NCBI RefSeq assembly: GCF_040207125.1
Contig: NZ_CP157940.1
Location: forward strand, 3,348,001 to 3,412,000
Reading direction: 5' to 3'
Origin: Lacrimispora sp. BS-2
GTDB taxonomy: Bacteria > Bacillota > Clostridia > Lachnospirales > Lachnospiraceae
Length of the DNA: 64,000 bases
Part shown: positions 25,016-44,978 of the stretch, piece by piece
How the letters are laid out: the number at the start of each line of letters is the position of its first letter
Position numbering within the stretch: the stretch's first letter is position 1
Notes under the pieces: model-generated
What the model was told of the DNA's origin: nothing
The model's input: only the letters and a program-made list of their open reading frames with translations
Database searches by the model: none
Position numbers and translations under genes: made by a program

Positions 25016-25754
25016 CTGCCTTTTGGTGAACTATATTCCCAGGCGGCGGAATAATGATTTTCTGTAATTGATTGTATTACTGCCGATTATGCAGCCGGCA
25101 CTCAGGTCTGCGCAATCCACAGATGAAACCGCCCTCTTTTTTCCCCTTGGTAAACAAGAGGGCGCAAAGTTTAAATAAATTCCTTCGTTTTTGCAGATAA
25201 GTGACTGGTAAAGAACTACCCTACAAATTTAACTCCAACTTTCAATTAAGGTTTGAGAGTTGGAGAATTAAGTTTTATCTGGTCAGCATCCTATGGGATG
25301 CTCTATCCACGTTCGGACAGCTTTCATCGTTTGTTTTCCACAATCTCAAGTAGTTCTCAACCAATTTATCTAGTTTCTTTAAATGGAACCTTCGAGTCGA
25401 TCCAGTAGGATCATTAGGAAGTATTTCCGGGTATTACCCTTCTTGCTATCTCTTTTCCAATTCCTGTTTGACATCAGACTTATTTTATCCGATTTCAGAG
25501 GCTTTCAGAAGGGCGGCGACAACTAGATTTGAACTAGTAAGCGCCTAAAAAACGTAGGAAAAAGGAGGGTTTGGCGTGCCGGGATGGGTTTGCGCAAGCG
25601 GGGGGCAAACAAAAAAATTTTCTTTCTTATATAAAGCAACTATAAAATATTTAACTAGAATAGCAATAACCAAATTTTATATATTTCTACTATCCCATTA
25701 TTGATTTTACTTATAGTATATTTCCTCACTTAGCGAGTTGATATAAATTGGGGG
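25016..25754 (+). other. Long non-coding stretch with hairpins and unassigned remnants
   Basis: No convincing gene. A GC hairpin (CGCCCTCTT/AAGAGGGCG, 25130-25164) probably ends the LysM transcript. A second inverted repeat lies at 25232-25265. On the minus strand about 25275-25385 encodes a short open stretch (KKLDKLVENYLRLWKTNDES) that I cannot assign and that ends in a stop. The left edge of the accessory region probably lies here. Confidence 0.4.
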
Positions 25755-26121: not shown

Positions 26122-26207
26122 GGAAGCGTATCGAAGTAGTCATAACGAGCTTGACTCGAAATCAAGTTGTCCGCAAGGGCATGTGGGTTCGAATCCCACC
26201 ACTTCCG
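26122..26207 (+). tRNA. tRNA-Ser (CGA), slightly degenerate
   Basis: The cloverleaf can be drawn: acceptor GGAAGCG with CACTTCC (one C-A mismatch), D stem TCG/CGA, anticodon stem CTTGA/TCAAG with loop CTCGAAA (anticodon CGA), a long variable arm TGTCC-GCAA-GGGCA typical of serine tRNAs, and T stem GTGGG/CCCAC with loop TTCGAAT. The acceptor mismatch and the loss of one of the two D-loop guanines (AGTAGTC instead of AGTGGTC) suggest an accessory copy that is decaying. A serine recombinase gene follows. Confidence 0.7.
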
Positions 26208-26216
26208 CAAGTTATA

Positions 26217-26336: not shown

Positions 26337-27272
26337 ATGAGTAAGCAAATTACTACTATCCCGGCAAGACAAAATCAAGTTGATAAAAAATTAAAGGTTG
26401 CTGCCTATTGCCGTGTCAGCACAGAGCATGAAGAACAAAAACAAAGTTTAAAATCACAAATAACTTACTATACGCAAAAGATCTGCTATAACCCGGATTG
26501 GGATTTTGCTGGTGTCTACGCCGAACTGGAATCTGGCACAAAAGTAGATAACAGAGATGAAATTCAGCGATTAATGAATGATTGCAGAAATGGAAAAGTA
26601 GATTTGATTTTAATGAAATCCCTTAGCCGTTTTAGGCGCAATACATTGGATGTCCTGCTTATGCTTGATGAATTATCTAAATTAAATGTAGTTGTCTACT
26701 TTGAAACAGAGGACATTTGTTCTAATGATGCTCGGATAAAAAAATATATTACTATGGCAACAGCGGCTTATCAGGAAGAAAGCAGACAAAAAAGTGAAGC
26801 TATCAAATGGGGTATCCGTCAGAGTAGTCACTATGGACATATAAAGCTGAATCACTCACAGTTTCTTGGCTACGGCAGAGATGACGATGGAAACCTTGTA
26901 ATTATTGAAGAAGAAGCTAAAATTGTACGGCTTATTTATGATTTGTTTCTGCAAGGTTATGGCTGTCGCAAGATCAAGAAATATCTTGAAGATCACGCTA
27001 TAAAAACTGTCACTGGTAAAGAGCAATGGAGCACATCAACCATTGATCGAATCTTATCCAATGATAAATATATTGGTCGTAATATTACTCCTAAAACCCA
27101 TACTCCTGGTTTTCTTACAGGCAAACAAGAAGAAAACCGTGGACAGATTGATGTGATTATAATCGAAAATTCTCACCAAGCGATCATTAGTCAAGAGATG
27201 TTTGATGCTGTACATAATTTAAAAGGAAACATTAAGAGCAAAGAGGTAAATATAAAAGGAATCGGTTTCTAA
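26337..27272 (+). CDS. Serine site-specific recombinase
   Basis: 311-residue recombinase. The resolvase domain has VAAYCRVSTEHEEQKQSLKSQ with the catalytic Ser28, YAELESGTKVDNRDEIQRLM and LILMKSLSRFRRNTLD. A recombinase DNA-binding domain follows (IKWGIRQ, YDLFLQGYGCRKIKKYLED, WSTSTIDRILSNDKYIGR). It lacks the zinc ribbon and coiled coil of 500-residue large serine integrases and ends soon after SQEMFDAVHNLKG, so it may be a natural short form or C-terminally truncated. AAGGAGG precedes the ATG. It follows the tRNA-Ser cluster and precedes the candidate defence cassette. Confidence 0.88.
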   Translation: MSKQITTIPARQNQVDKKLKVAAYCRVSTEHEEQKQSLKSQITYYTQKICYNPDWDFAGVYAELESGTKVDNRDEIQRLMNDCRNGKVDLILMKSLSRFRRNTLDVLLMLDELSKLNVVVYFETEDICSNDARIKKYITMATAAYQEESRQKSEAIKWGIRQSSHYGHIKLNHSQFLGYGRDDDGNLVIIEEEAKIVRLIYDLFLQGYGCRKIKKYLEDHAIKTVTGKEQWSTSTIDRILSNDKYIGRNITPKTHTPGFLTGKQEENRGQIDVIIIENSHQAIISQEMFDAVHNLKGNIKSKEVNIKGIGF

Positions 27273-27346: not shown

Positions 27347-27375
27347 TTGCTTTATTCGCCGTTGCGATGTATAAT
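27347..27375 (+). promoter_or_regulatory. Promoter of the HTH/NdpA/nuclease cassette
   Basis: TTGCTT-N17-TATAAT, about 35 bases upstream of the small helix-turn-helix gene; it can drive all four following genes. Confidence 0.7.
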
Positions 27376-27409
27376 ATATACAATATTTATTTGGCAAAGG
27401 ATATTTTTA

Positions 27410-27577
27410 ATGGACTATATGACAGCGAAAGAAGCAGCGGAAAAATGGGCAATCACTCCACGCCGGGTTCAGGTGCTTTGCGCACAGGGAAAAATATCGG
27501 GCGCTATTCGGTTTGGGGTTACTTGGGCAATACCTAAGAATGCTATAAAACCCAAGGATGGTCGATATAAAAAGTGA
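27410..27577 (+). CDS. Small helix-turn-helix DNA-binding protein
   Basis: 55-residue MerR/excisionase-like protein (MTAKEAAEKWAITPRRVQVLCAQGKI, then FGVTWAIPKNAIKPKDGR). This AAEKWxITxRRVQxLC type is common on clostridial mobile elements and next to restriction or toxin genes, where it probably regulates its own operon. AAAGGA precedes the ATG. It is the first gene of the cassette, with the next start close behind. Confidence 0.75.
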   Translation: MDYMTAKEAAEKWAITPRRVQVLCAQGKISGAIRFGVTWAIPKNAIKPKDGRYKK

Positions 27578-27611
27578 CTTGAAAGAAAATATAGAAAGTA
27601 GGATTAATGAA

Positions 27612-28655
27612 ATGTTTGATTTCACGGAAGCCAAAATAGAAAAACTGATTATTCACCAAGTGGGAAATAAGTTAAAAGATGAACCTTTGGTTCTGTCAGA
27701 TATATTTGCAGATATTACAGATAGCTCTTTAACTAATTTAGTCGAGAGATATTTTTTTCAAAGATTTAAAGACAATGGGCAATATTCTTTTGGACACGAA
27801 ACCAATTTAGCATTTAATGAATTATATCAGTACTCAAAAAATATTTTTCATGACCCTAATGAATTGAAAAAAAATTCAGAGAATATAGCAACGCATTTGT
27901 ACAAGGTTTCGACACATCCCAACATAAAAAGCGGAGAATTATATATTGCTTACATTAGTAACGCAATACTAAACAATCAGCATTATGATGCAATAGGGAT
28001 ATTTAAATCGGAAACTAAGGAACCATTTTTGAAAATTAATAATAAAGAAAAAAACATAACTTTGAGTTGGGATACAGGGGTAGATACTCGCAAACTAGAT
28101 AAAGGCTGTATAGTTTTTAATAATTGCGAGGATTTGGGATATAGCATTTTAATTGTTGATTCTGGAAATCAAATAGATACTAAATATTGGGTACAAGACT
28201 TTTTGGGGATAGAAAAAAATGATAGCTCTTTTCAAAAAACAAAGATAGTAGTTGATGCCTGTAAGCAATATATAAAAAAAGATTATCAAGGGGCTACAAC
28301 AGAAAAAGTTGCCGCCTTGAATAGTGTTCTAAATTATATTGATTCTAATGAAAGTCTTCAACTAGATGAATTTAGTGATAGAGTAACCGATACAATACAA
28401 GAGGCTGAACAACTTAGAGAGTATATCCAGTCTTTTGCTGAAAAGAAAAACTTTCATGATATTCAAAACTTTGAAGTGGATCAATCAGCAGTAAAAACAA
28501 TCAAAAAAACAATTAAAAATATAATTAAACTGGACTCTGCATTCGAAATAAAAGTTAAAGCATTTAGCGAACTGGATAAAAAGCATTTGGAAAAAGGTTA
28601 CGATGAAGATAAAAAGATGCACTATTACAAACTTTATTTTAATGAAGAACAATAG
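27612..28655 (+). CDS. Nucleoid-associated (NdpA/YejK-like) protein
   Basis: 347-residue protein. The N-terminus (FTEAKIEKLIIHQVGNKLKDEPLVLSD) and the middle (TNLVERYFFQRF, HLYKVSTHPNIKSGELYIAYI, DAIGIFKSE, YWVQDFLGI) follow the 37-kDa nucleoid-associated protein family, which binds DNA. I chose ATG at 27612 because AGGA lies 8 bases upstream and the homology begins there; an ATG at 27558 would overlap the small regulator gene. Placement before a nuclease-like pair, 14 bases apart, suggests a DNA-recognition or sensor role in a defence cassette. That role is inference. Confidence 0.75.
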   Translation: MFDFTEAKIEKLIIHQVGNKLKDEPLVLSDIFADITDSSLTNLVERYFFQRFKDNGQYSFGHETNLAFNELYQYSKNIFHDPNELKKNSENIATHLYKVSTHPNIKSGELYIAYISNAILNNQHYDAIGIFKSETKEPFLKINNKEKNITLSWDTGVDTRKLDKGCIVFNNCEDLGYSILIVDSGNQIDTKYWVQDFLGIEKNDSSFQKTKIVVDACKQYIKKDYQGATTEKVAALNSVLNYIDSNESLQLDEFSDRVTDTIQEAEQLREYIQSFAEKKNFHDIQNFEVDQSAVKTIKKTIKNIIKLDSAFEIKVKAFSELDKKHLEKGYDEDKKMHYYKLYFNEEQ

Positions 28656-28669
28656 AAAGGGGAAGCATT

Positions 28670-29605
28670 ATGTCTGGTGAAAAATCTAAATCTTCAGGTG
28701 AATATGGAGAGAAAATAGCCAATGAATTATTAAAGTTAATTGGTTGGGAAAATGCACTTTCAGGCAAAGACATTCCTTGTGTAAGAAAAGACCATTTAGG
28801 TGCAAGTGGAAGCAGTAGGAATAACCATGGTGTGGACTATATCATAAAGTATTCTTGTCCATTAGTAAGTAAAACAGAAAGTAATATACTGGTTTCTGTT
28901 AAACATCGAAAAAATTACCCATCCGCACAAAAAAGCAAAATATCCGACTTCAAGGAGTTTTTAAAAGATATTGCAGAGGCCACTGAATGTTATCCCTCGC
29001 ATGAATTGTTTAAAGATAATATAATTGGAACTAAAACTAAGAATGTTTGCAATGTAATTATGTGGTTCAGCGCTTTACAGGATGAACTGTGTGATGGAGT
29101 GATCGATGATATATTTGATTTTAGAAATAGCGATGCAGTTAATTATGGAACTGTCTATTTGTTAGATAATAAAAAAGCAACGTTTTTATACAGTAGTATA
29201 CAGTACGCTCGAAAAAAGGATAATAAATTCTTCTATTTTTACCCTGATACAGGATTAAATATGGATACCGTATTTAGAACACACCAAGGTAATGTTCTAC
29301 CTGTTCAATACATAAACTCACCGATACAGTTATTTAAAATTATAACAGATACAGGAGAGAGTCTTATTATTACAGTAGAAGATGAATTTAATATAGATTA
29401 TTTTGAAAGATTACTACAATTTGCACGATTATTAACGGTAGGCTGGGCTACAAAAATTTTTATGGTTTTTCCAAACTATAATGACTACTCCAATTCTGAA
29501 AGTGTCAAAAAAAGCTTAAGTAGATTAGCTGACAGAAATTTTGCACAAAAAATTATAGTGGAGAGTCTTGATTACTCTGATTTTAGAAATTTAGGAGGTA
29601 TCTGA
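28670..29605 (+). CDS. PD-(D/E)XK nuclease-like protein (GapS4a-like)
   Basis: 311-residue protein. The N-terminal third has a restriction-endonuclease core: Glu in GEYGEKIANELLKLIGW (residues 11-26), Asp56 in NHGVDYIIK, and SNILVSVKHRK with Lys78, i.e. D...xVK with Ser76 in place of the usual second acidic residue. The C-terminal part (LFKIITDTGESLIITVEDEF) is unfamiliar. From memory it resembles GapS4a of the GAPS4 anti-phage system, which acts with GapS4b; the next gene fits that partner. AAAGGGG precedes the ATG. Family assignment was not checked by search. Confidence 0.6.
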   Translation: MSGEKSKSSGEYGEKIANELLKLIGWENALSGKDIPCVRKDHLGASGSSRNNHGVDYIIKYSCPLVSKTESNILVSVKHRKNYPSAQKSKISDFKEFLKDIAEATECYPSHELFKDNIIGTKTKNVCNVIMWFSALQDELCDGVIDDIFDFRNSDAVNYGTVYLLDNKKATFLYSSIQYARKKDNKFFYFYPDTGLNMDTVFRTHQGNVLPVQYINSPIQLFKIITDTGESLIITVEDEFNIDYFERLLQFARLLTVGWATKIFMVFPNYNDYSNSESVKKSLSRLADRNFAQKIIVESLDYSDFRNLGGI

Positions 29606-29606
29606 T

Positions 29607-30722
29607 ATGCATGAAGACCAAATTTTGAGATGTTCTGAGATCTCTGTTGCGCAGATGTTACCGTTTGGATTTGCATTGAGACCTTTGCTAAATGACTCAT
29701 GTTTAACAGATGGCGATTTGAATAATGTGTTGAAATCAAGAGGAGTTTTTTTAGGGAATACAGATAAAAAGAGTACCATACCTTTAATAGTAACAATGGT
29801 TCTAAGTCCCAAAGAATTTGAAACGTTGCAAGAAAGGCAAGAAACTAAAGAAAGTAATCCTAAACATCGCAACAGTACTATTAAAAGTAAAACCACTAAT
29901 CCTTTAATCAAGGCTATTGCCGATTTTGAAATTCCTGTGGATAAAGTAGAAAAGACGAATGACATAGAACTACTTACACCTATGAATTTCGCAACGCTGA
30001 GCGAAAATCATTTGCAGTTAGAATATATCATTTCTCGCAAAGATTTAACAAAAGATTGGGTACGACCCGAAAGCCGACATTCTGGAAAGGTAAACATAAA
30101 AAAAGATGTTTCAAGTAATGTAGTTGAAATATGTAATGAATACACGTCAAAAGAAACTGATGATATCAATAAGCAAGTTATAAAAGAACTTCTTTCATTT
30201 TTAAAAGAAAATCAAGAAGTTGATGATAAAATGGAAACAGTGTCAGCTTCTGATTTTACTAATAGAGAGAGATTTAATTTCATGCTGCAGTTGGCAGCAG
30301 ATAGTGATGACGGCTCCATGAAATTTGTTGAAATAAAAGATATTGAGTTGGGTCCGGATCCGGAGAATCCACCTAAAAATCCCAACAGCATCATCCAACA
30401 AAACGTTAAAAAAGTTATAATTAATGGGAATGCGCTAGAGCGTAATTCATTATTGACAAATGATACTGATAAAGATCACTTGATCTTTCGTAGTGTAGAA
30501 GCGAAATACGAGTTTAATTTTAAGGGAATAAAAGGCTCCTGTTTAATGCAATATGGATTTATGCATTTTTTTAGAAACCAGAACACTTCTCAAGAATTTC
30601 AAGTTGCATTACTGTATTTAAAGTCAAGATCAGCAAATAAAGCAAGTTTAAATAATTTTGTACTAGAGCAGTTTGAACGAATGAAAAAGAAAGCTCTTCA
30701 AAAAACACAAAAGGATTCTTAA
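29607..30722 (+). CDS. GapS4b-like partner protein
   Basis: 371-residue protein with no recognised catalytic motif. The start reads LRCSEISVAQMLPFGFALRPLLNDSCLTDGDLNNVLKSRGVFLGNTDKKSTIPLIVTMVLSPKEFETL, a short helical module that recalls SAP-like or winged-helix segments. The rest is polar and ends with a basic helix. Its ATG is 2 bases after the nuclease stop with GGAGG inside that gene, so the two are translationally linked. I think it is a GapS4b-type subunit; confidence is limited because this rests on memory of the family. Confidence 0.55.
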   Translation: MHEDQILRCSEISVAQMLPFGFALRPLLNDSCLTDGDLNNVLKSRGVFLGNTDKKSTIPLIVTMVLSPKEFETLQERQETKESNPKHRNSTIKSKTTNPLIKAIADFEIPVDKVEKTNDIELLTPMNFATLSENHLQLEYIISRKDLTKDWVRPESRHSGKVNIKKDVSSNVVEICNEYTSKETDDINKQVIKELLSFLKENQEVDDKMETVSASDFTNRERFNFMLQLAADSDDGSMKFVEIKDIELGPDPENPPKNPNSIIQQNVKKVIINGNALERNSLLTNDTDKDHLIFRSVEAKYEFNFKGIKGSCLMQYGFMHFFRNQNTSQEFQVALLYLKSRSANKASLNNFVLEQFERMKKKALQKTQKDS

Positions 30723-30770
30723 TCATTAATACAATTTTGCCCTGCATCTATTTTGACCTAATGACACATC

Positions 30771-30815
30771 GAGAAAGCCTGAAATCATTCGGTTTACAGG
30801 CTTTCTCATTTTTTA
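30771..30815 (+). terminator. Terminator after the GapS4-like cassette
   Basis: GAGAAAGCCTG pairs CAGGCTTTCTC around a 15-base loop, followed by ATTTTTTAT. It closes the operon that starts at 27347. Confidence 0.85.
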
Positions 30816-30876: not shown

Positions 30877-31955
30877 TTACTCGGTGGACTCTGAAAATCC
30901 CAGCACAGCCATGAGTGCAGATGCACTGGATAGCTTAGAATTGTAGTCCAAGTGTGCGTAAATATTTGCTGTGGTACTAAAATCCGAATGCCCCAGCCAT
31001 TCCTGAATTTGCTTCATTGGTACATTATTTGCTAATAGCAGTGATGCACACGAATGTCTGAGATCGTGAAACCGTATCTTTCTCAGCTCATGCTTTTTCA
31101 AAAAGCTTGGGAATGTATGCGTAATATAGTTCGGTTCAATCAGGCGCCCCAGTTCATCCACATACAAATAATCCAAGTAATCCTTGCAGTAGGAGTTTCC
31201 GCAGAGCCTGCGGTATTCCTCCTGCTTTTTCTTTAGCTGAAGCAAATAATCACGAAATACAGGCACCAAGGGCAGTGTACGCATACTGGATTTGGTTTTT
31301 GCTCTGTCCTTGGCCTCCACCATCTTTTTTCCTTCCAGTTTATAGCTGTTGACCGTGTGGCGGATGCTGATGGTATTCTGTCGAAAGTCGATGGCAGTCC
31401 ACCATAATCCTACAATCTCTGCTCGGCGCAAACCATAAAATGCGCCAAACAGGATAGGCATCTCCAGACATGTCCCTTTGGAGAACTCAAACAGCTGGTT
31501 AATTTCTTCGCTGTGGTAAAAGCTACCTACGAACTTCTGTGCCTTGGGGCGGGTGACTTTTTCTGCCGGATTGCTTACGATAATATCCATCCGTACAGCA
31601 TCTTTCAGCGCCTTATGAATGTTTGCGTGATAACGCTGGAGCGTTTTTGCCGAAACCTTCTGCAATTCATGATTGTAAAACCGCTGAATATCACTGGCTT
31701 TCAGGTCTTTTAGCGCAATACCAAGCGGTTCAAAATATGGAACAATCACATTCTTCACTGCTCTGGTATAGCCCGCAAAGGTGATATTCTCAATATTAGG
31801 TTTCATTGATTGCAGCCACTCCAGCATATAATCCGAAAACATCTGCTCTGCATCTCCTGTCAGCTGCTTGGGAGGAACGAAGGCTTTTCGTATCTCTGCA
31901 AGCTTTAGCTCTGCTTTTTTCTAATTTCCTTTGACGGATAACTCCGTTGATACCC
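30877..31955 (-). pseudogene. Tyrosine integrase, main part, split by IS66
   Basis: Encodes the body of a phage/ICE-type integrase: core-binding residues (MFSDYMLEWLQSMKP, SDIQRFYNHELQKVSAKTLQRYHANIHKALKDAV) and the catalytic domain (FYGLRRAEIVGL, HDLRHSCASLLLANN, WLGHSDFSTTANIYAHL) with the Arg, His-x-x-Arg, His and Tyr all present. The frame upstream reads TKWVSTELSVKGN, then a TAG stop, then KKAELKLAEIRKAF, so there is a nonsense codon at 31920-31922. The gene is also cut by IS66; its first codons lie at 34641-34720. The integrase is therefore doubly inactivated. Confidence 0.9.
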
Positions 31956-36916: not shown

Positions 36917-39900
36917 ATGAAAGCCGAAAAAGAAATTGAAATAAGCTTTATTAAAAAGCTGCAAGATTTAAAATACAAATATCGTGAAGATATTCGAGAT
37001 AAGGCTTCCCTTGAAGCTAATTTTAGAGAACAGTTCGAAAAATTAAATCGTGTTAAGCTAAGTGATTCCGAATTTGTTCGTCTTCGAGATACCATTGTTA
37101 CTGCGGATGTGTTTGCAGCGGCTAAAATATTGAGAGAAACGAACACTTTTAAGCGTGATGATGATACACCTTTACAATACACACTTGTAAATATTAAAGA
37201 CTGGTGCAAAAACGAATTTGAAGTAGTCAATCAGTTACGCATTAATACAGATAATAGCAATCACCGTTATGATGTAATTATCCTCATCAATGGTGTCCCT
37301 GTTGTTCAAATCGAGCTAAAAACCTTGCAAATTACACCCAAAAAAGCTATGGAACAAATTGTTAATTACAAAAACGATCCTGGAAATGGTTACACAAATT
37401 CATTACTGTGCTTTATGCAGCTCTTTATTGTAAGCAACGAAACCAATACCTACTATTTTGCAAATAATCATACGGAACATTTTTGTTTTAATGCAGACGA
37501 AAGATTTTTACCCATATATGAGTTCGCAGACAAAGACAACAAAAAAATCACAAACCTCTATGAGTTCACCACGAACTTTCTACCCAAATGCACTCTTGGC
37601 GAACTAATCAGTAGATATATAGTACTTGTGGTAAGCGAGCAAAAATTGATTATAATGCGTCCTTATCAGATTTATGCTGTCAAAGCAATCATTGATTGCA
37701 TTAACGAAAACAGAGGGAACGGCTATATTTGGCATACCACTGGAAGTGGAAAAACGCTCACATCATTTAAGACATCAACACTTTTGAAGGATAATCCTGA
37801 AATCGAAAAGTGTCTATTTGTTGTAGATAGAAAAGATCTCGATCGGCAAACTCGATTGGAGTTTAACAAATTTCAAGAAGGCTGTGTTGAGGAAAATACC
37901 AATACCGAAAATTTGGTTAGACGGCTTACATCAGATGACTATAAAGATAAAGTCATTGTTACTACCATTCAAAAATTAGGGCTGGCTCTGGATGAAGACA
38001 GTAAACGAAACCAAGAGAAGAAAAGAAAGGGGCAGCTCACTTTTAAAGAAAGATTGGCAAAGCTCCAAAACAAGCGTATTGCTATTATTTTTGATGAGTG
38101 CCATCGCTCTCAATTTGGAGAGAATCATGATGCAATCAAAAACTTCTTCCCCAAAGCACAGCTTTTTGGATTTACGGGAACACCGATTTTTGAAGAGAAT
38201 TCAACCTACAAACAGATAGATGGTACTATAGGCTCTTACATAACAACAACAGATGTTTTCCAACAAGAGCTTCATGCCTACACTATCACCAATGCAATTG
38301 ACGATGGTAATGTATTGCGTTTCCATATTGATTATTTCAAACCTGATGACTCACAAAAAGCTGCAAAAGCAGGCTCCACAATAAGCAAAAGGAAGATGGC
38401 TGAAGCAATTCTTTCAAAACATGATGCATCAACCTACAACAGAAGATACAATGCTATCTTTGCTACGGCATCTATTAATGATGCTATTGAATATTTTGAT
38501 TTATTCAAAGAATTGCAAGAAGAATTTGATAAAGCCAATCAAGACTTTACGCCTCTTAACATTGCTTGCATTTTCTCTCCGCCAGCAGAGGGGAATAAGG
38601 ATGTCAAACAGCTTCAAGAAGACCTCTCGCAGGAAAAGGCAGACAACCAAGAAAATCCAGACAAGAAAAAAGCTGCTCTTAAAGCAATCATAAATGATTA
38701 CAACAAGAAATACGGAACAAATCATAGCATAAATGAATTTGATCTATACTATCAAGATGTACAGAAACGCATTAAAGATCAACAATACAGCAACGCAGAT
38801 TATCCGCATGAAAACAAAATAGACATTGTTATCGTTGTTGATATGCTGTTAACTGGTTTTGACTCCAAATATTTGAACACCTTATATGTGGATAAAAACC
38901 TGAAGCAACACGGCCTAATTCAAGCCTTTTCAAGAACAAATCGTGTGCTGAATCCTACAAAACCTTATGGAAATATTATTGACTTCAGAGGGCAAGAAAA
39001 AGAAGTCAATGATGCAATCAAACTCTTTTCGGGCAAGGAAAACGCTGAAAAAGTAAAAGAAATTTGGCTTGTAGATCCTGCACCCGTTGTGATTGAAAAG
39101 CTGGATAAAGCCGTTGCAGCACTTGAAAAGTTTATGAAATCACAAGGCCTTGAGTGCAAGCCTGAGGAAGTGAGCAATCTTAAGGGGGATACTGCTCGTG
39201 CGGAGTTCATTGACAAGTTCAAAGAAGTGCAACGCCTAAAAACGCAGCTTGACCAATATACCGAAATAAAAGAGGAGCAAGCCGCCGAAATTGCCGGGCT
39301 GTTGCCTGAAGATACCATACGGGCATTCCGAGGAGCCTATCTTGAAACAGCCGAAAGATTAAAAGAGCAGCAAGGAAAAGAAATTGAGGATAGAGTACCC
39401 GAGGTAGAACAGCTCGATTTTGAGTTTGTTCTGTTTTCCTCTGCTATTATTGACTACGATTATATCATGTCGCTTCTTTCTAAATATACTCAACCCGATG
39501 TACCGAAGAAAGAAAAGATGACGAAAAAGGAATTGGTGGACCTGATTGCTTCAACCTCTAATTTTATGGAAGAACGCAAGGATATTGAGGAATACATCGA
39601 GGAACTTGACAAGTATCTTAAAGCTTTCGAGGGTAATAAGGGACTTACTGAACAGGAAGTAATGGACGGTTATAAAAAGTTCAAAACTGAAAAATCGGCA
39701 AACGAGCTTGTGGCTCTGTCCGATAAACATGGTCTTGAGGCTCAGTCCTTGCAAGTATTTGTTGACGCTATTATGGAAAGAAAGATTTTTGACGGCGAAA
39801 AGTTAAGCGACTTGTTAGAGCCACTTGACCTTGGCTGGCGTGATAGAACCAAGAAAGAATTAGAACTTATGGATGACTTGATTCCACTGCTCAAAAAATT

Positions 39901-39943
39901 AGCCGGTGGGCAAGAGATCGTGGGGTTGAAAGCGTATGAATAA
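36917..39943 (+). CDS. hsdR: Type I restriction enzyme R subunit
   Basis: 1008-residue motor and nuclease subunit. An N-terminal PD-(D/E)XK domain has Asp119 and Glu133-x-Lys135 in RYDVIILINGVPVVQIELK. The SF2 translocase has Walker A TTGSGKT (about 275-281), DECH (about 393) and ATGTP-like FTGTP, then motif VI SRTNRVLNP. A helical C-terminal region docks the methylase. It resembles the EcoR124-type (IC) family. AAGGGAG precedes the ATG. hsdS overlaps its end by 8 bases. Confidence 0.96.
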   Translation: MKAEKEIEISFIKKLQDLKYKYREDIRDKASLEANFREQFEKLNRVKLSDSEFVRLRDTIVTADVFAAAKILRETNTFKRDDDTPLQYTLVNIKDWCKNEFEVVNQLRINTDNSNHRYDVIILINGVPVVQIELKTLQITPKKAMEQIVNYKNDPGNGYTNSLLCFMQLFIVSNETNTYYFANNHTEHFCFNADERFLPIYEFADKDNKKITNLYEFTTNFLPKCTLGELISRYIVLVVSEQKLIIMRPYQIYAVKAIIDCINENRGNGYIWHTTGSGKTLTSFKTSTLLKDNPEIEKCLFVVDRKDLDRQTRLEFNKFQEGCVEENTNTENLVRRLTSDDYKDKVIVTTIQKLGLALDEDSKRNQEKKRKGQLTFKERLAKLQNKRIAIIFDECHRSQFGENHDAIKNFFPKAQLFGFTGTPIFEENSTYKQIDGTIGSYITTTDVFQQELHAYTITNAIDDGNVLRFHIDYFKPDDSQKAAKAGSTISKRKMAEAILSKHDASTYNRRYNAIFATASINDAIEYFDLFKELQEEFDKANQDFTPLNIACIFSPPAEGNKDVKQLQEDLSQEKADNQENPDKKKAALKAIINDYNKKYGTNHSINEFDLYYQDVQKRIKDQQYSNADYPHENKIDIVIVVDMLLTGFDSKYLNTLYVDKNLKQHGLIQAFSRTNRVLNPTKPYGNIIDFRGQEKEVNDAIKLFSGKENAEKVKEIWLVDPAPVVIEKLDKAVAALEKFMKSQGLECKPEEVSNLKGDTARAEFIDKFKEVQRLKTQLDQYTEIKEEQAAEIAGLLPEDTIRAFRGAYLETAERLKEQQGKEIEDRVPEVEQLDFEFVLFSSAIIDYDYIMSLLSKYTQPDVPKKEKMTKKELVDLIASTSNFMEERKDIEEYIEELDKYLKAFEGNKGLTEQEVMDGYKKFKTEKSANELVALSDKHGLEAQSLQVFVDAIMERKIFDGEKLSDLLEPLDLGWRDRTKKELELMDDLIPLLKKLAGGQEIVGLKAYE

Positions 39944-41180
39944 GAATGTGAAAACGGCACTAATTCCGAAATACAGGTTTTGGGAATTTGTTGAAAACGG
40001 TCCAGTTATTTGTGAAAATGGGAATTTGATTTTTAAGCAAGTTAGTAATAAAACTCATAATTCGGATTTGCCTATACTTGCTATTTCCCAAGAATATGGA
40101 GCAATTCCAAGAGATGAAATCGATTATAAGGTTTCAGTTACAGAAAAAAGCCTTGAAAGCTATAAAGTTGTGGAAAAAGGCGACTTTATAATTAGCCTAA
40201 GATCATTTCAAGGCGGTATTGAATACTCCACATATCATGGCATTTGCAGTCCTGCATATATAATTTTACGCAAAAAGATTGATGTTGAGGAGCAATATTA
40301 TAAATACTATTTTAAGTCCAACAGATTTATTCAAGATTTAAATAAAGACCTTGAGGGAATAAGAGATGGTAAGATGGTAAACTATAATCAGTTTTCCAAT
40401 ATACTATTGCCTAAACCCGATAAGAAAGAACAACAAAAAATCGCAGACTGCCTAATCTCTCTTGATGATTTAATCACTGCAGAGGATAAGAAACTATCGG
40501 CACTGAAAGACCACAAAAAAGGTTTAATGCAAAAACTCTTCCCTGTCGAAGGCAAAACTGTTCCGGAGTGGAGGTTTCCGGAGTTTAGGGATTGTGAAGA
40601 GTGGGAATATTTTAAGCTTTCAGATATAGGCGAAATAATCACAGGTAGCACCCCGGCCACCAATAAAAATGAATATTATGGAGGGCAATTTATGTTTGCT
40701 TCTCCATCGGATATTTCCGATAAAAGATATTTAAATTCAACCAAAACAACTTTATCAGAATTGGGATTTCAACAAACAAGACATATTAAAGCGAATAGCA
40801 TACTATTTGTTTGCATTGGTTCTACTATCGGAAAATTGGCTCAAAACCGGGAAGTCTGTGCTACAAATCAACAAATTAATTCATTGGTTCCATTTGAGAA
40901 TTATCACAATAGTTTTGTTTATTTTGCCTTAGAATTCAGTTCCAATGTAATTAGTAATTTGGCAGGTAAACAAGCAGTTCCTATTGTAAATAAAACATTG
41001 TTTTCCAATGTAGTAATCCCGTTGCCACTTGAGAAGAAAGAACAAGAAAAAATTTCCGATTGCCTTTCTTCAGTTGATGAATTAATTGCTGGACAGGCTG
41101 ACAAAATCAAAGCCTTAAAGGAACAGAAGAAAGGCTTAATGCAAGGACTATTTCCTTCTATTGAGGAGGTGAGTCGATGA
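39936..41180 (+). CDS. hsdS: Type I restriction specificity subunit S
   Basis: 414-residue protein with two target-recognition domains separated by a repeated helical spacer: KKEQQKIADCLISLDDLITA and KKEQEKISDCLSSVDELIAG, each followed by KxxKKGLMQxLFP. The two half-repeats show the usual pseudo-symmetry. The second domain contains GEIITGSTPATNKNEYYGG and FASPSDISD. It is translationally coupled to hsdR. The target sequence cannot be read from the protein. No inverted hsdS fragments lie nearby, so no phase switching is suggested. Confidence 0.95.
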   Translation: MNKNVKTALIPKYRFWEFVENGPVICENGNLIFKQVSNKTHNSDLPILAISQEYGAIPRDEIDYKVSVTEKSLESYKVVEKGDFIISLRSFQGGIEYSTYHGICSPAYIILRKKIDVEEQYYKYYFKSNRFIQDLNKDLEGIRDGKMVNYNQFSNILLPKPDKKEQQKIADCLISLDDLITAEDKKLSALKDHKKGLMQKLFPVEGKTVPEWRFPEFRDCEEWEYFKLSDIGEIITGSTPATNKNEYYGGQFMFASPSDISDKRYLNSTKTTLSELGFQQTRHIKANSILFVCIGSTIGKLAQNREVCATNQQINSLVPFENYHNSFVYFALEFSSNVISNLAGKQAVPIVNKTLFSNVVIPLPLEKKEQEKISDCLSSVDELIAGQADKIKALKEQKKGLMQGLFPSIEEVSR

Positions 41181-42298
41181 GCACTAAAAGGTACACGAAT
41201 TTAAAAGGGTTAGCACGCAATATCCGTGATACCCTTGGCACAGCAGACACACCCGACACAAAAAATTACTTCCTTCTTTTTGCTTATAATGGAACCGGGA
41301 AAACAAGACTTTCCGGAGAATTTAAAGATTTAGGCAAAAGAAGAATCCGTGGTAGTGAAGAAAAAGCACGAGATACTTTATACTATAATGCTTTCACAGA
41401 GGATCTTTTTACTTGGTACAATGACTTAGAAGCAGATACAGATAGGCAACTGCTTTTTAATACAAACTCTCGCTTTTTCGATGGTTTAAGAGATCTTGAA
41501 ATGGAAACTCGTATACGTGAGTTTTTGAGGGTTCACGCTGATTTTGACTTTACTATCAATTATGAAGATGGCTATGTCAGTTTTTCACGAGAAGTCCAAA
41601 ATAGAGAAGGAGCAGAAACTATTACTGGAATCAAAATCTCTCGCGGCGAAGAAAATATGTTTATTTGGTGCTTCTTTCTCGCCATAGTGCAACTGGTAAA
41701 GCTCGAAGCTCTGTCCTATGACTGGGTCAAATATATTTACATAGACGATCCAATATCATCTCTTGACGACAATAATGTTGTAGCGGTAGCGTGTCAGCTT
41801 GCAGAATTACTTAAGGATTGTCAAATCAAAACCGTTATTTCTACTCATCACGCATTGTTTTTTAATGTAATGTATAATGAGTTAAAAAAAGAGAGTACGG
41901 CAAGTCGTTTTTTAAGTTTTGACAAGGAAACATGCAAATATATAGTTAAGAATACAGGCGATACACCGTTTTTCCACCATGTGGCATTATTAAAAGAATT
42001 GAAAAAAGCAGCGGACAGCGGGAAAATCTATACCTATCATTTCAATATTTTGAGAAATCTCCTTGAGAAAACAGCAGCATTTCACGGATTTGATAATTTC
42101 TCAGCTTGCATAAAGCTAGAAGATGATGATTTAGACGGTGTAATCTATGCACGAATGACAAATCTACTAAGCCATGGAAATCATTCAATGTTTAATCCTG
42201 TTGAAATGGTTGATGACAATAAGGAAATTTTCAAAAAGGTATTAATCGGGTTTATGGAAACTTATAAATTTAACGATGACTTATTTACAGGGGAATAG
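41177..42298 (+). CDS. ATPase with PrrC/RloC-like anticodon nuclease features
   Basis: 373-residue ABC-type ATPase: Walker A AYNGTGKT (36-43), signature-like SRGEENMFIW, Walker B YIYIDDPISSLDD and H-loop VISTHH. The C-terminal part has Arg293-x3-Glu297 (RNLLEKTAAF) and His333/His336 (LLSHGNH), the order and near spacing of the Arg-Glu-His triad of the PrrC tRNA anticodon nuclease. It overlaps hsdS by 4 bases (ATGA) and is followed by hsdM after 11 bases, so it is an integral part of this operon. In E. coli, PrrC guards a type I system and fires when phage blocks it. A general ATPase function without nuclease activity is the alternative. Confidence 0.7.
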   Translation: MSTKRYTNLKGLARNIRDTLGTADTPDTKNYFLLFAYNGTGKTRLSGEFKDLGKRRIRGSEEKARDTLYYNAFTEDLFTWYNDLEADTDRQLLFNTNSRFFDGLRDLEMETRIREFLRVHADFDFTINYEDGYVSFSREVQNREGAETITGIKISRGEENMFIWCFFLAIVQLVKLEALSYDWVKYIYIDDPISSLDDNNVVAVACQLAELLKDCQIKTVISTHHALFFNVMYNELKKESTASRFLSFDKETCKYIVKNTGDTPFFHHVALLKELKKAADSGKIYTYHFNILRNLLEKTAAFHGFDNFSACIKLEDDDLDGVIYARMTNLLSHGNHSMFNPVEMVDDNKEIFKKVLIGFMETYKFNDDLFTGE

Positions 42299-42309
42299 AG
42301 GTGCCACTT

Positions 42310-44106
42310 ATGAACAATATACAACAAAAAGAATTAGGCAAAACCCTTTGGGGGATTGCCGATAAACTCCGTGGAGCGATGAATGCGGACGACTTCCGTG
42401 ATTATATGTTGTCGTTTCTTTTCTTACGCTATCTTTCTGATAATTATGAGACGGCTGCAAAAAAAGAGCTCGGTAGTGACTATACCAACTGTGAAAGGGA
42501 AATCGTAAACACTGTTGCAAATGAAACACACAATCAAGTTATTAGTAAATTAAAAAAACAGGTGATCGATTATTATGAAGCTTTGCCTGTTAATAAGCTA
42601 CCTGTAAAAGAAGATGAAACTGATAAAAAAGTTATCCAAAAAGCAAGACAGACATTAATTGACGAATATGATAGCTTGCTTGAAAGTGGTAAGTTAACTC
42701 CCCTTGGTATTTGGTATATTAGAAATTTAGATCAGGTAAGCGTCTTTGAAAAGCAAATGCGCAGAAAGGTTCATTTTGTTATAAAGCCTCATTATTTGTG
42801 GAGCAATATATATGAATTGGCAAGAATACAAAGCAATCAGCTTTTAAAAACCTTGCAGAGAGGTTTCAAATTTATTGAAAACGAATCCTTTGATAGTACT
42901 TTTCGTGGTTTGTTTTCAGAGGTCAATCTTGACTCTGAAAAGCTTGGCAAAAACTATGAAGTGCGCAATGAAATGCTGTGCTCAATCATAACTCAAATTG
43001 CTAAAGGGCTTGCTGAGTTCACTAATGAAATTGACCTTTTAGGCAATGCTTATGAATATTTGATAGGTCAGTTTGCTGCTGGTTCAGGTAAAAAGGCCGG
43101 TGAATTCTACACGCCACAACAAATTTCCACTATCCTTTCCCGGATTGTAATACTTGATAGCCAAGAGCCTGAAAATGGTAAAAAACCATTTATCCACAAT
43201 CTTTTAGACTTTGCTTGCGGATCGGGATCACTGCTTATCAATGTCAAGAAACAACTTGAACCTAATAGTATTGGGCAAATATATGGGCAAGAAAAAAATG
43301 TCACAACTTATAACCTTGCCCGTATGAATATGCTCCTTCATGGATTTAAAGATTCAGAGTTTCAAATTTTTCATGGCGATTCATTAACCAACGATTGGCC
43401 AATACTTAGCGAGATGAATCCAGCTAAAAAACTAAAGTGTGATGCTATAGTAGCAAATCCGCCTTTTAGTTATCGTTGGGAGCCAAATGATACTCTTACA
43501 GAAGATTTTCGATTTAAAAACTATGGCCTTGCTCCCAAGTCAGCAGCTGACTTTGCTTTTCTATTACATGGATTTCACTTTTTAAGTGATGATGGTACTA
43601 TGGCGATTATTTTGCCTCATGGTGTTCTATTTCGTGGTGGAGCGGAAGAAAAAATCAGAACTAAACTGCTGAAAGATGGAAATATTGATACAGTCATAGG
43701 TTTACCGTCCAACCTATTTTTCTCTACCGGTATCCCGGTTTGTATTCTTGTGCTTAAGAAATGCAAAAAGCCAGATGATGTGCTATTTATAAACGCAAGT
43801 GAGTATTACGAAAAAGGAAAACGCCAAAATGTTCTTTTGCCAGAGCATATAGATAGAATTGTTGAAACTTACCAATTCCGTAAAGAGGATGACAAAAAGT
43901 ATTCTCGCCGTGTATCTATAGAGGAGATTGAAAAAAATGGTTTTAATCTTAATATTTCCCGATATGTAAGTACGGCATCAGAAGAAGAAATCGTTGACCT
44001 TACTGAAGTGGGAAAAAATTTAAACAGCATTGAAGAGAGTATAGTTGCCGCTAAAAAACGACATAATCAGTTTTTAAGAGAATTAGGTCTTCCCGAACTG
44101 CAATAA
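42310..44106 (+). CDS. hsdM: Type I restriction-modification methyltransferase M subunit
   Basis: 598-residue adenine methylase. The N-terminal helical domain (LGKTLWGIADKLRGAMNADDFRDYMLSFLFLRYLSDNYE) is followed by the SAM site FACGSGSLLI, the catalytic NPPF at 383-386, and a C-terminal helix. I chose ATG at 42310 with AGAGG 8 bases upstream; an in-frame GTG at 42301 lacks a site. Last gene of the operon, opposite to the common hsdM-first order, with a terminator downstream. Confidence 0.96.
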   Translation: MNNIQQKELGKTLWGIADKLRGAMNADDFRDYMLSFLFLRYLSDNYETAAKKELGSDYTNCEREIVNTVANETHNQVISKLKKQVIDYYEALPVNKLPVKEDETDKKVIQKARQTLIDEYDSLLESGKLTPLGIWYIRNLDQVSVFEKQMRRKVHFVIKPHYLWSNIYELARIQSNQLLKTLQRGFKFIENESFDSTFRGLFSEVNLDSEKLGKNYEVRNEMLCSIITQIAKGLAEFTNEIDLLGNAYEYLIGQFAAGSGKKAGEFYTPQQISTILSRIVILDSQEPENGKKPFIHNLLDFACGSGSLLINVKKQLEPNSIGQIYGQEKNVTTYNLARMNMLLHGFKDSEFQIFHGDSLTNDWPILSEMNPAKKLKCDAIVANPPFSYRWEPNDTLTEDFRFKNYGLAPKSAADFAFLLHGFHFLSDDGTMAIILPHGVLFRGGAEEKIRTKLLKDGNIDTVIGLPSNLFFSTGIPVCILVLKKCKKPDDVLFINASEYYEKGKRQNVLLPEHIDRIVETYQFRKEDDKKYSRRVSIEEIEKNGFNLNISRYVSTASEEEIVDLTEVGKNLNSIEESIVAAKKRHNQFLRELGLPELQ

Positions 44107-44267: not shown

Positions 44268-44978
44268 TTATATCCCCCTGATAGGAACAATTAAATTTTG
44301 GCTATCAAACGCCGATAGCCTATCCGTTGTGCAAAGTACTGCCCCTGTGCCACGCTCCAGAGAAGCCTTATCAATCACGCCGAATACTCGAGTGAGCTGG
44401 CTTTGGGGCGTAGCCGTTTTCTTGATTTCCATGGGGTACAACCTGCCGCTGTCTTCTAGCAGAATATCTATTTCCTTGGTATCCTTATCTCGATAGTAAT
44501 AAATAAAAGCTTCTCGGCCGCAATTCTGATAGCTCTTAACAATCTCCGACACCACAAAATTCTCAAGAATCGCACCGCTCATGGCACCATTCATCAGGGT
44601 ATCGCTATCGCTCCATTTGGTCAGATAGGCCACCAATCCACAGTCGTAGAAATACAGCTTTGGCTTTGTCACCATGCGTTTGAGCATATTGTTGAAGTAG
44701 GGATACAGATAAAATACAATTCCCAGTCACTCCAAAATGCCCAACCACTTTTTAGCGGTGAGCTGATCGATGCCCGCAGCGTCTGCAATGGTCTTGTAAT
44801 TGAGCACCTGCCCGCATAGAGCAGCGGCAGCGGTGATAAATTCCATAAAACGGCTGTCGATAGCATCGGAGATTTCCTTTGCATCACGGTCGATATAGGT
44901 GCTGATGTAGCTTGCATCTGCAAATTTTTCGGCGTGAATTAGTTTATTCAATGTAGCGTACTTCGACCTTGAAACCAT
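44268..44978 (-). pseudogene. AAA/DUF4143 ATPase, truncated with nonsense codon
   Basis: One reading frame broken by a TGA at about 44725-44727 (LGILE-stop-LGIVFYLYPY). The first part (ISTYIDRDAKEISD, FMEFITAAAALCGQVLNYKTIADAAGID) and the second (KPKLYFYDCGLVAYLTKW, YYYRDKDTKEIDILLEDSGRLYPMEIKKTATP) match the C-terminal half of DUF4143 ATPases, the latter a nuclease-like domain with D-x-E-x-K. The N-terminal Walker ATPase domain is absent. Related to the intact gene at 49530-50912. Non-functional. Confidence 0.85.

Follow-up and report, generated by a model that had tools for sequence, protein, structure and literature searches.

The last two of four closely packed open reading frames (ORFs) at 27410-30722 on the + strand of a 64,000-nucleotide stretch of Lacrimispora sp. 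BS-2 (contig NZ_CP157940.1, positions 3,348,001 to 3,412,000, hereafter the window) are almost certainly the two genes of GapS4ab, and they are preceded by a gene for a protein of the NA37 (YejK/NdpA) family. The same trio recurs in three phyla and in two gene orders. The window operon represents a known system, in a three-gene form that has drawn little notice; what is new is the link of NA37 to GapS4ab, and loci with NA37 also exist outside the window. We consider it fairly probable that this is a three-component GAPS4 anti-phage operon, in which NA37 would be a third subunit that may target or license the nuclease. Features are listed in Table 1.

Table 1. Features of the GapS4ab operon and its surroundings, in window coordinates
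Feature	Position	Strand	Basis
tRNA-Ser (cga)	26122..26208	+	ARAGORN
Serine recombinase	26337..27272	+	Pfam Resolvase and Recombinase
Promoter-like site TTGCTT-17-TATAAT	27347..27375	+	By eye; predicted only, absent from the promoter scan list
Excisionase-type helix-turn-helix (HTH) protein, 55 aa	27410..27577	+	HTH_17, 26.5 bits (cut-off 27)
NA37 (YejK/NdpA family) protein, 347 aa	27612..28655	+	PF04245; frame open from 27558
GapS4a, predicted PD-(D/E)XK-type nuclease	28670..29605	+	NF047933, fold model, invariant residues
Key residues of GapS4a	E14; D56 28835-28837; S76 28895-28897; K78 28901-28903	+	Invariance in alignment
GapS4b, partner protein	29607..30722	+	NF047934, PF26110 on a relative, fold model
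Intrinsic terminator	30771..30815	+	Folding, z -5.86; stem 30771-30807, then T-run
Tyrosine recombinase/integrase	30877..31842	-	Pfam Phage_integrase, 82 bits
Type I restriction operon (HsdR, HsdS, PrrC-like, HsdM)	36917..44106	+	PADLOC, NCBIfam; same variable stretch

An earlier note, made from the letters of the window alone, had recognised an endonuclease core in the third gene and likened the last two genes to GapS4a and GapS4b; profile searches and modelling agree with it on these points. The third protein matches NCBIfam NF047933 over nearly its full length (284 bits, cut-off 270; residues 1-299 on positions 1-301 of 302), and a database copy 98% identical to it carries PF26115. The fourth gives a nearly whole-length match to NF047934 that lies 0.4 bits below the cut-off (299.6 bits vs 300; residues 18-362 on positions 1-353 of 355), and P0190, which is 97% identical to it, carries PF26110. 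The predicted model of GapS4a (predicted local distance difference test, pLDDT, 91.5) has a nuclease core containing D56 and S76-V-K78, and in structure comparison it resembles PD-(D/E)XK nucleases with a modest Z. The residues E14, D56, S76 and K78 do not vary across 45 aligned GapS4a sequences (that of the window plus 44 taken from the 69 relatives retrieved), so that the S-V-K motif, taken in the note for a variant, is standard for the family; two divergent relatives (L105 and L106) have E-x-K as their third motif. The GapS4b model (pLDDT 83.4) consists of a helical N-terminus followed by a predicted two-part alpha/beta fold. Sequence searches of the PDB retrieved no relative of GapS4a (phmmer and profile) or of GapS4b, with just matches of E 0.2 or weaker, and no sequence support was found for a likeness of GapS4b to RdgC, a toroidal DNA-binding nucleoid-associated protein. 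GapS4a had 0 matches among 50,697 phage records, and none in viral contigs by single sequence, where a profile found 3 loci. PADLOC (2023) left the first three proteins of the operon unmatched and gave GapS4b a stray match of 15.5 bits; its library is probably older than GAPS4.

The second gene, which the note had called NdpA-like, belongs to the family at 105.3 bits with Pfam PF04245 (cut-off 24.6; residues 31-330 on positions 1-298 of 325), but its kinship to YejK proper is distant by sequence, with 15% identity to the E. coli protein. The PF04245 model, which detects the YejK bearer E. coli in the control set, finds just one protein in this genome, the NA37 of the operon. As most of the listed relatives have about 345-355 aa, a start at 27612 is more likely than one at 27558. 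A search of the PDB with the single NA37 sequence found no relative. Stronger profile links from NA37 to YejK and to PDB entry 9be2 were set aside as circular, the alignment having included E. coli YejK.

The recurrence of the trio was surveyed in 29 GapS4ab loci, to all of which our own hidden Markov models (HMMs) for the three genes were applied. The set consists of the window, 17 loci from a scan of a genome collection, L025, 3 viral contigs, 2 plasmids and 5 genomes added by drawing 375 from the phylum of one Bacteroidota host. Assigned by title or by draw, ten loci are of Firmicutes type (L025 by inference), 12 are from Bacteroidota, 4 from Proteobacteria in the wide sense and 3 are unassigned; the sample leans to Firmicutes and Bacteroidota, both of which the query and the genome draws favoured. 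Rows with fragment matches (L021-L024), two divergent ones (L020 and L026) and L085, which is the L013 locus again, were left out of the counts. In 18 of the 29 loci an NA37 gene adjoins GapS4ab in the same orientation, two of these on incomplete evidence, so the co-occurrence of NdpA-like and GapS4 genes that the note had considered extends to other genomes. It lies upstream in 12 loci (the window, L002-L008, L015, L025, L027 and L028) and, as a partial frame of 226 aa, in L029. It follows directly downstream in four (L012, L099, L100 and L101), and a fifth downstream case is split between contigs, with L014 ending in gapS4b and L107 of the same genome beginning with the end of gapS4b, followed by NA37. 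The upstream position is that of Firmicutes and Stenotrophomonas, and the downstream position that of Bacteroidota. Every Firmicutes-type locus that can be judged (9/9) has NA37 upstream, including L006, which is labelled as a Tenericutes metagenome-assembled genome and is near-identical to L007. Ten loci have no adjoining NA37 (L009, L010, L011, L013, L016, L018, L030, L031, L102 and L103), L011 and L103 among them being cut on one side. L017 was left unjudged, as its contig begins at gapS4a and a broken-frame NA37 ends another contig of that genome; this contig-end copy (L049 1331-2403) is split in two overlapping frames. As a weak further sign, 15 NA37 relatives from the protein searches seem to share their source with GapS4a relatives.

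The genes of the trio are closely spaced. In the window, gapS4a and gapS4b are adjacent on the same strand with a gap of 1 nt, the fourth gene starting 2 bases past the end of the third as previously noted, and 14 nt separate NA37 from GapS4a; a Shine-Dalgarno-like sequence stands upstream of both GapS4 genes. In L012, L015, L099 and L107 NA37 overlaps the GapS4 genes by 4 bases. Tree-distance correlations over 12 three-gene loci are 0.74 for NA37-GapS4a, 0.82 for NA37-GapS4b and 0.945 for GapS4a-GapS4b, to all of which shared host ancestry contributes. In the NA37 tree the operon copies fall in several clades (the group of the window, two other Firmicutes groups, a Dysgonomonas type and L099-L101, with Stenotrophomonas far out), and solo or unplaced copies lie in between. 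This pattern and the existence of two gene orders suggest more than one recruitment of NA37 to GapS4ab. The trio is not one inherited arrangement, since NA37 is upstream in one set of loci and downstream in another.

Variants of the pair bear on how its parts work together. GapS4a and GapS4b are fused in L018 (2897-5041, 714 aa) and in L099 (5594-8281, 895 aa), and these fusions support the two proteins as a working complex. The L099 fusion, which NA37 overlaps, is extended at its N-terminus by about 208 residues that match nothing in Pfam, and its GapS4a part apparently lacks E14, D56 and K78. The extra domain may therefore be a replacement nuclease. Divergent GapS4ab pairs in L106 (6139-8891) and L105 (5520-8376) have an unrelated protein of 227-255 aa in the place of NA37, and on this ground the third slot of GapS4ab operons may be exchangeable; profile comparison ruled out that this protein is an NA37. 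Against the NCBIfam GapS4 models the L106 pair reaches 49 and 41 bits, and the likeness of its second member to GapS4b is put at 96.9% by profile.

The recurrence of the same trio in distant bacteria is what makes the third protein a probable defence part, and we regard a working role of NA37 in the system as likely. Within the operon, GapS4a would be the nuclease that cuts phage DNA, with GapS4b as its constant partner. The pair would form a physical complex with NA37, which as a dedicated third subunit would place GapS4ab on DNA or license it there. NA37 might read the state of the DNA, for instance by recognising phage DNA that is free of protein, under topological strain or replicating, and this reading would help to spare the chromosome. 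Excerpts of PMC8565334 offer a precedent for NA37 as an adaptor: NdpA2, borne on an integrative and conjugative element, gave no DNA shift alone but raised the affinity of its partner MvaT for DNA. For YejK itself, contact with ParE/topoisomerase IV is cited from Lee and Marians 2013 in an excerpt of PMC10561277. The assignment of targeting or licensing to NA37 is nevertheless tentative, and we hold it with less than even confidence. Two results weigh against it: with YejK excluded from the profile, the match to E. coli YejK is weak and partial (probability 24%, 105 columns), and the NA37 profile built in this way has no match in the PDB. Our confidence in the three-component operon, in the targeting role and in the more far-reaching form of it given below was lowered accordingly, because the YejK links are circular and nearly vanish without YejK.

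Ranking next is the possibility that NA37 does no targeting and acts as a safety catch, coating host DNA or keeping GapS4ab inactive until infection. NA37 is translated ahead of the nuclease in Firmicutes-type loci, as antitoxins often are, and the sole PF04245 match of the window genome is the operon copy, which would suit such a role; however, NA37 comes last in Bacteroidota loci, and in the ten loci without an adjoining copy the nuclease must be tolerated without one nearby, so we judge this explanation unlikely. A role outside the defence reaction, as an anti-silencing regulator of operon expression, appears improbable. It would follow NdpA2 of PAPI-1, which together with TprA lifts MvaT silencing (excerpts of PMC8565334), and it would fit the HTH gene that opens the window operon and the frames resembling other HTH types that directly precede the operon in L029 and L100. 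The HTH partner is however not conserved in the 7 loci scanned, and NA37 overlaps GapS4 genes in four loci and can end the operon. More improbable still is a passenger role, in which NA37 would travel on mobile elements and just happen to land in defence islands. It does occur alone in genomes, plasmids and phages, and an excerpt of PMC10561277 places ndpA on an Acidithiobacillus mobile element, near a methyltransferase and helicases; yet it lies close to GapS4ab on the same strand in both gene orders and in different phyla, which argues against this, as does its presence in all judgeable Firmicutes-type loci compared with 84/397 genomes of the family of the window that have NA37 anywhere.

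A more far-reaching form of the targeting idea, which we think quite unlikely, is that GAPS4 recognises non-self by chromosome architecture, with NA37 as the sensor, GapS4b (RdgC-like by fold) as a DNA clamp, both ends exchangeable, and two-gene versions borrowing an NA37 from the host. The two nucleoid-protein folds would then pass to the nuclease DNA that lacks or disturbs the nucleoid organisation or topology of the host. Exchangeable ends are suggested by the unrelated third protein of the divergent pairs and by the L099 fusion, which keeps GapS4b and NA37 while GapS4a is changed.

NA37 was also surveyed beyond the GapS4ab loci. In 20 genomes with GapS4a or its divergent form, PF04245 detects NA37 in 16; in G405, G794 and G795 the operon NA37 is seen by our own HMM and missed by Pfam, and G798 has none. 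In the Bacteroidota draw, NA37 is present in 5/5 new GapS4a genomes compared with 14/73 others (p 0.0006). The hosts G1130 and G960 share a family with NA37 in 76/99 other genomes, which for two-gene loci largely explains this phylum-level excess, and chromosomal supply in trans, for which the case had looked strong at phylum level, was rejected on that account. A rough test with five two-gene hosts placed in that family, three of these memberships resting on names, gave p 0.28. Simple complementarity fails as well, because the three-gene hosts G791, G793, G818, G1059 and G1091 carry a second NA37. Among the nearest frames of 33 solo NA37 copies (the 30 best-scoring of the family draw and 3 others), judged by their first 45 residues with no family search, none resembled the GapS4 pair; in this check the view of L076 was centred on a neighbouring frame and that of L055 on a frame whose start is not NA37-like. 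Metabolic genes surround NA37 on one Alicyclobacillus and one Listeria record. Relatives of NA37 are also found in 23 phage records, of Polaribacter, Listeria and Tenacibaculum phages (e.g. L134 3001-4029), and are about 30-34% identical among the 15 listed. It is possible that they act as triggers or decoys of such systems.

GAPS4 is known as a two-gene system with its origin in Vibrio GMT islands. The window pair shares with it both proteins, their order, the catalytic motif and the near-contact of the genes (NF047933 and NF047934; PF26115 and PF26110), and differs in the NA37 gene that precedes it. Literature searches on GapS4 found no paper on the system, one of them, with an ambiguous prefix, covering the best 20 of 137 matches; at least six papers mention the gamma-mobile-trio. 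The window NA37 resembles YejK/NdpA (PF04245; PDB 9be2) in matching the family profile over nearly its full extent, and differs from it in lying in a nuclease operon. A defence system with a YejK domain is already published: the one such paper found for NdpA, YejK or NA37 together with phage, partly among the best 20 of 597 matches, is that on DefensePredictor (PMC13092281), where the excerpt describes a YejK domain in an experimentally validated E. coli anti-phage system. It shares with the window operon an anti-phage setting for a YejK-type domain. From the nucleases McrC, SduA (Shedu) and HamA (Hachiman), GapS4a differs in its lack of a sequence match in the PDB, in its partners and in a third motif that is mostly S-x-K. 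By what means broad DNA-cutting defences leave the chromosome unharmed is a question of current interest (excerpt of PMC12904381), and the presence of a recurrent third protein of a nucleoid-protein family beside a nuclease opens one possible answer to direct testing; annotators calling GAPS4 gain a third gene to seek.

The remaining parts of the operon are less firmly tied to the system. All four tightly packed genes described in the note are present as + strand frames, but the HTH gene, which it had counted as a component of the cassette, is not in the conserved set: no ORF like it was seen upstream of 7 other loci (ATG-started + strand ORFs within 400 bp, by eye). Two further copies in the genome are 44-45% identical to it, and a role as defence regulator was dismissed on their settings, which by eye are not defence-like. 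It is probably a local regulator that does not travel with the conserved genes, and GapS4 operons may often have such regulators, though of different kinds. The single terminator predicted downstream was borne out as a stable fold (-22.4 kcal/mol, with 0/200 shuffles equally stable). The proposed promoter is plausible by eye, having a perfect TATAAT and a 17-nt spacer, but its -35 is weak (3/6 matches), and the 17 promoter-like sites of the region are no excess over the shuffle mean of 22.3.

The flanks are as described, with the tRNA-Ser and serine recombinase on the left and the integrase on the right, except that the latter is not established as a relic, being a 321-aa frame with both Pfam domains. 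The serine recombinase does not reach the length of the large recombinases that its models describe, its alignment with CcrB covering positions 5-286 of 542. No att-like direct repeats were seen flanking the cassette. Parts of a short block at 25479-25669 match several sites in genomes of the same genus, and match this genome once more outside the window. A 139-aa frame at 44268-44687 (- strand) corresponds to the C-terminal part of the PADLOC candidate PDC-S01 models (100.7 bits) and is fragment-like. Defence genes close to GapS4ab, namely the type I restriction operon with its PrrC-like gene in the window and Septu-like, OLD-like and TmtA genes at other loci, speak for an anti-phage operon. 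In L100 and L101 GapS4ab-NA37 is cargo adjoining frames that by eye resemble transfer genes of conjugative transposons, and further along L101 are TmtA and an AlbA_2 protein.

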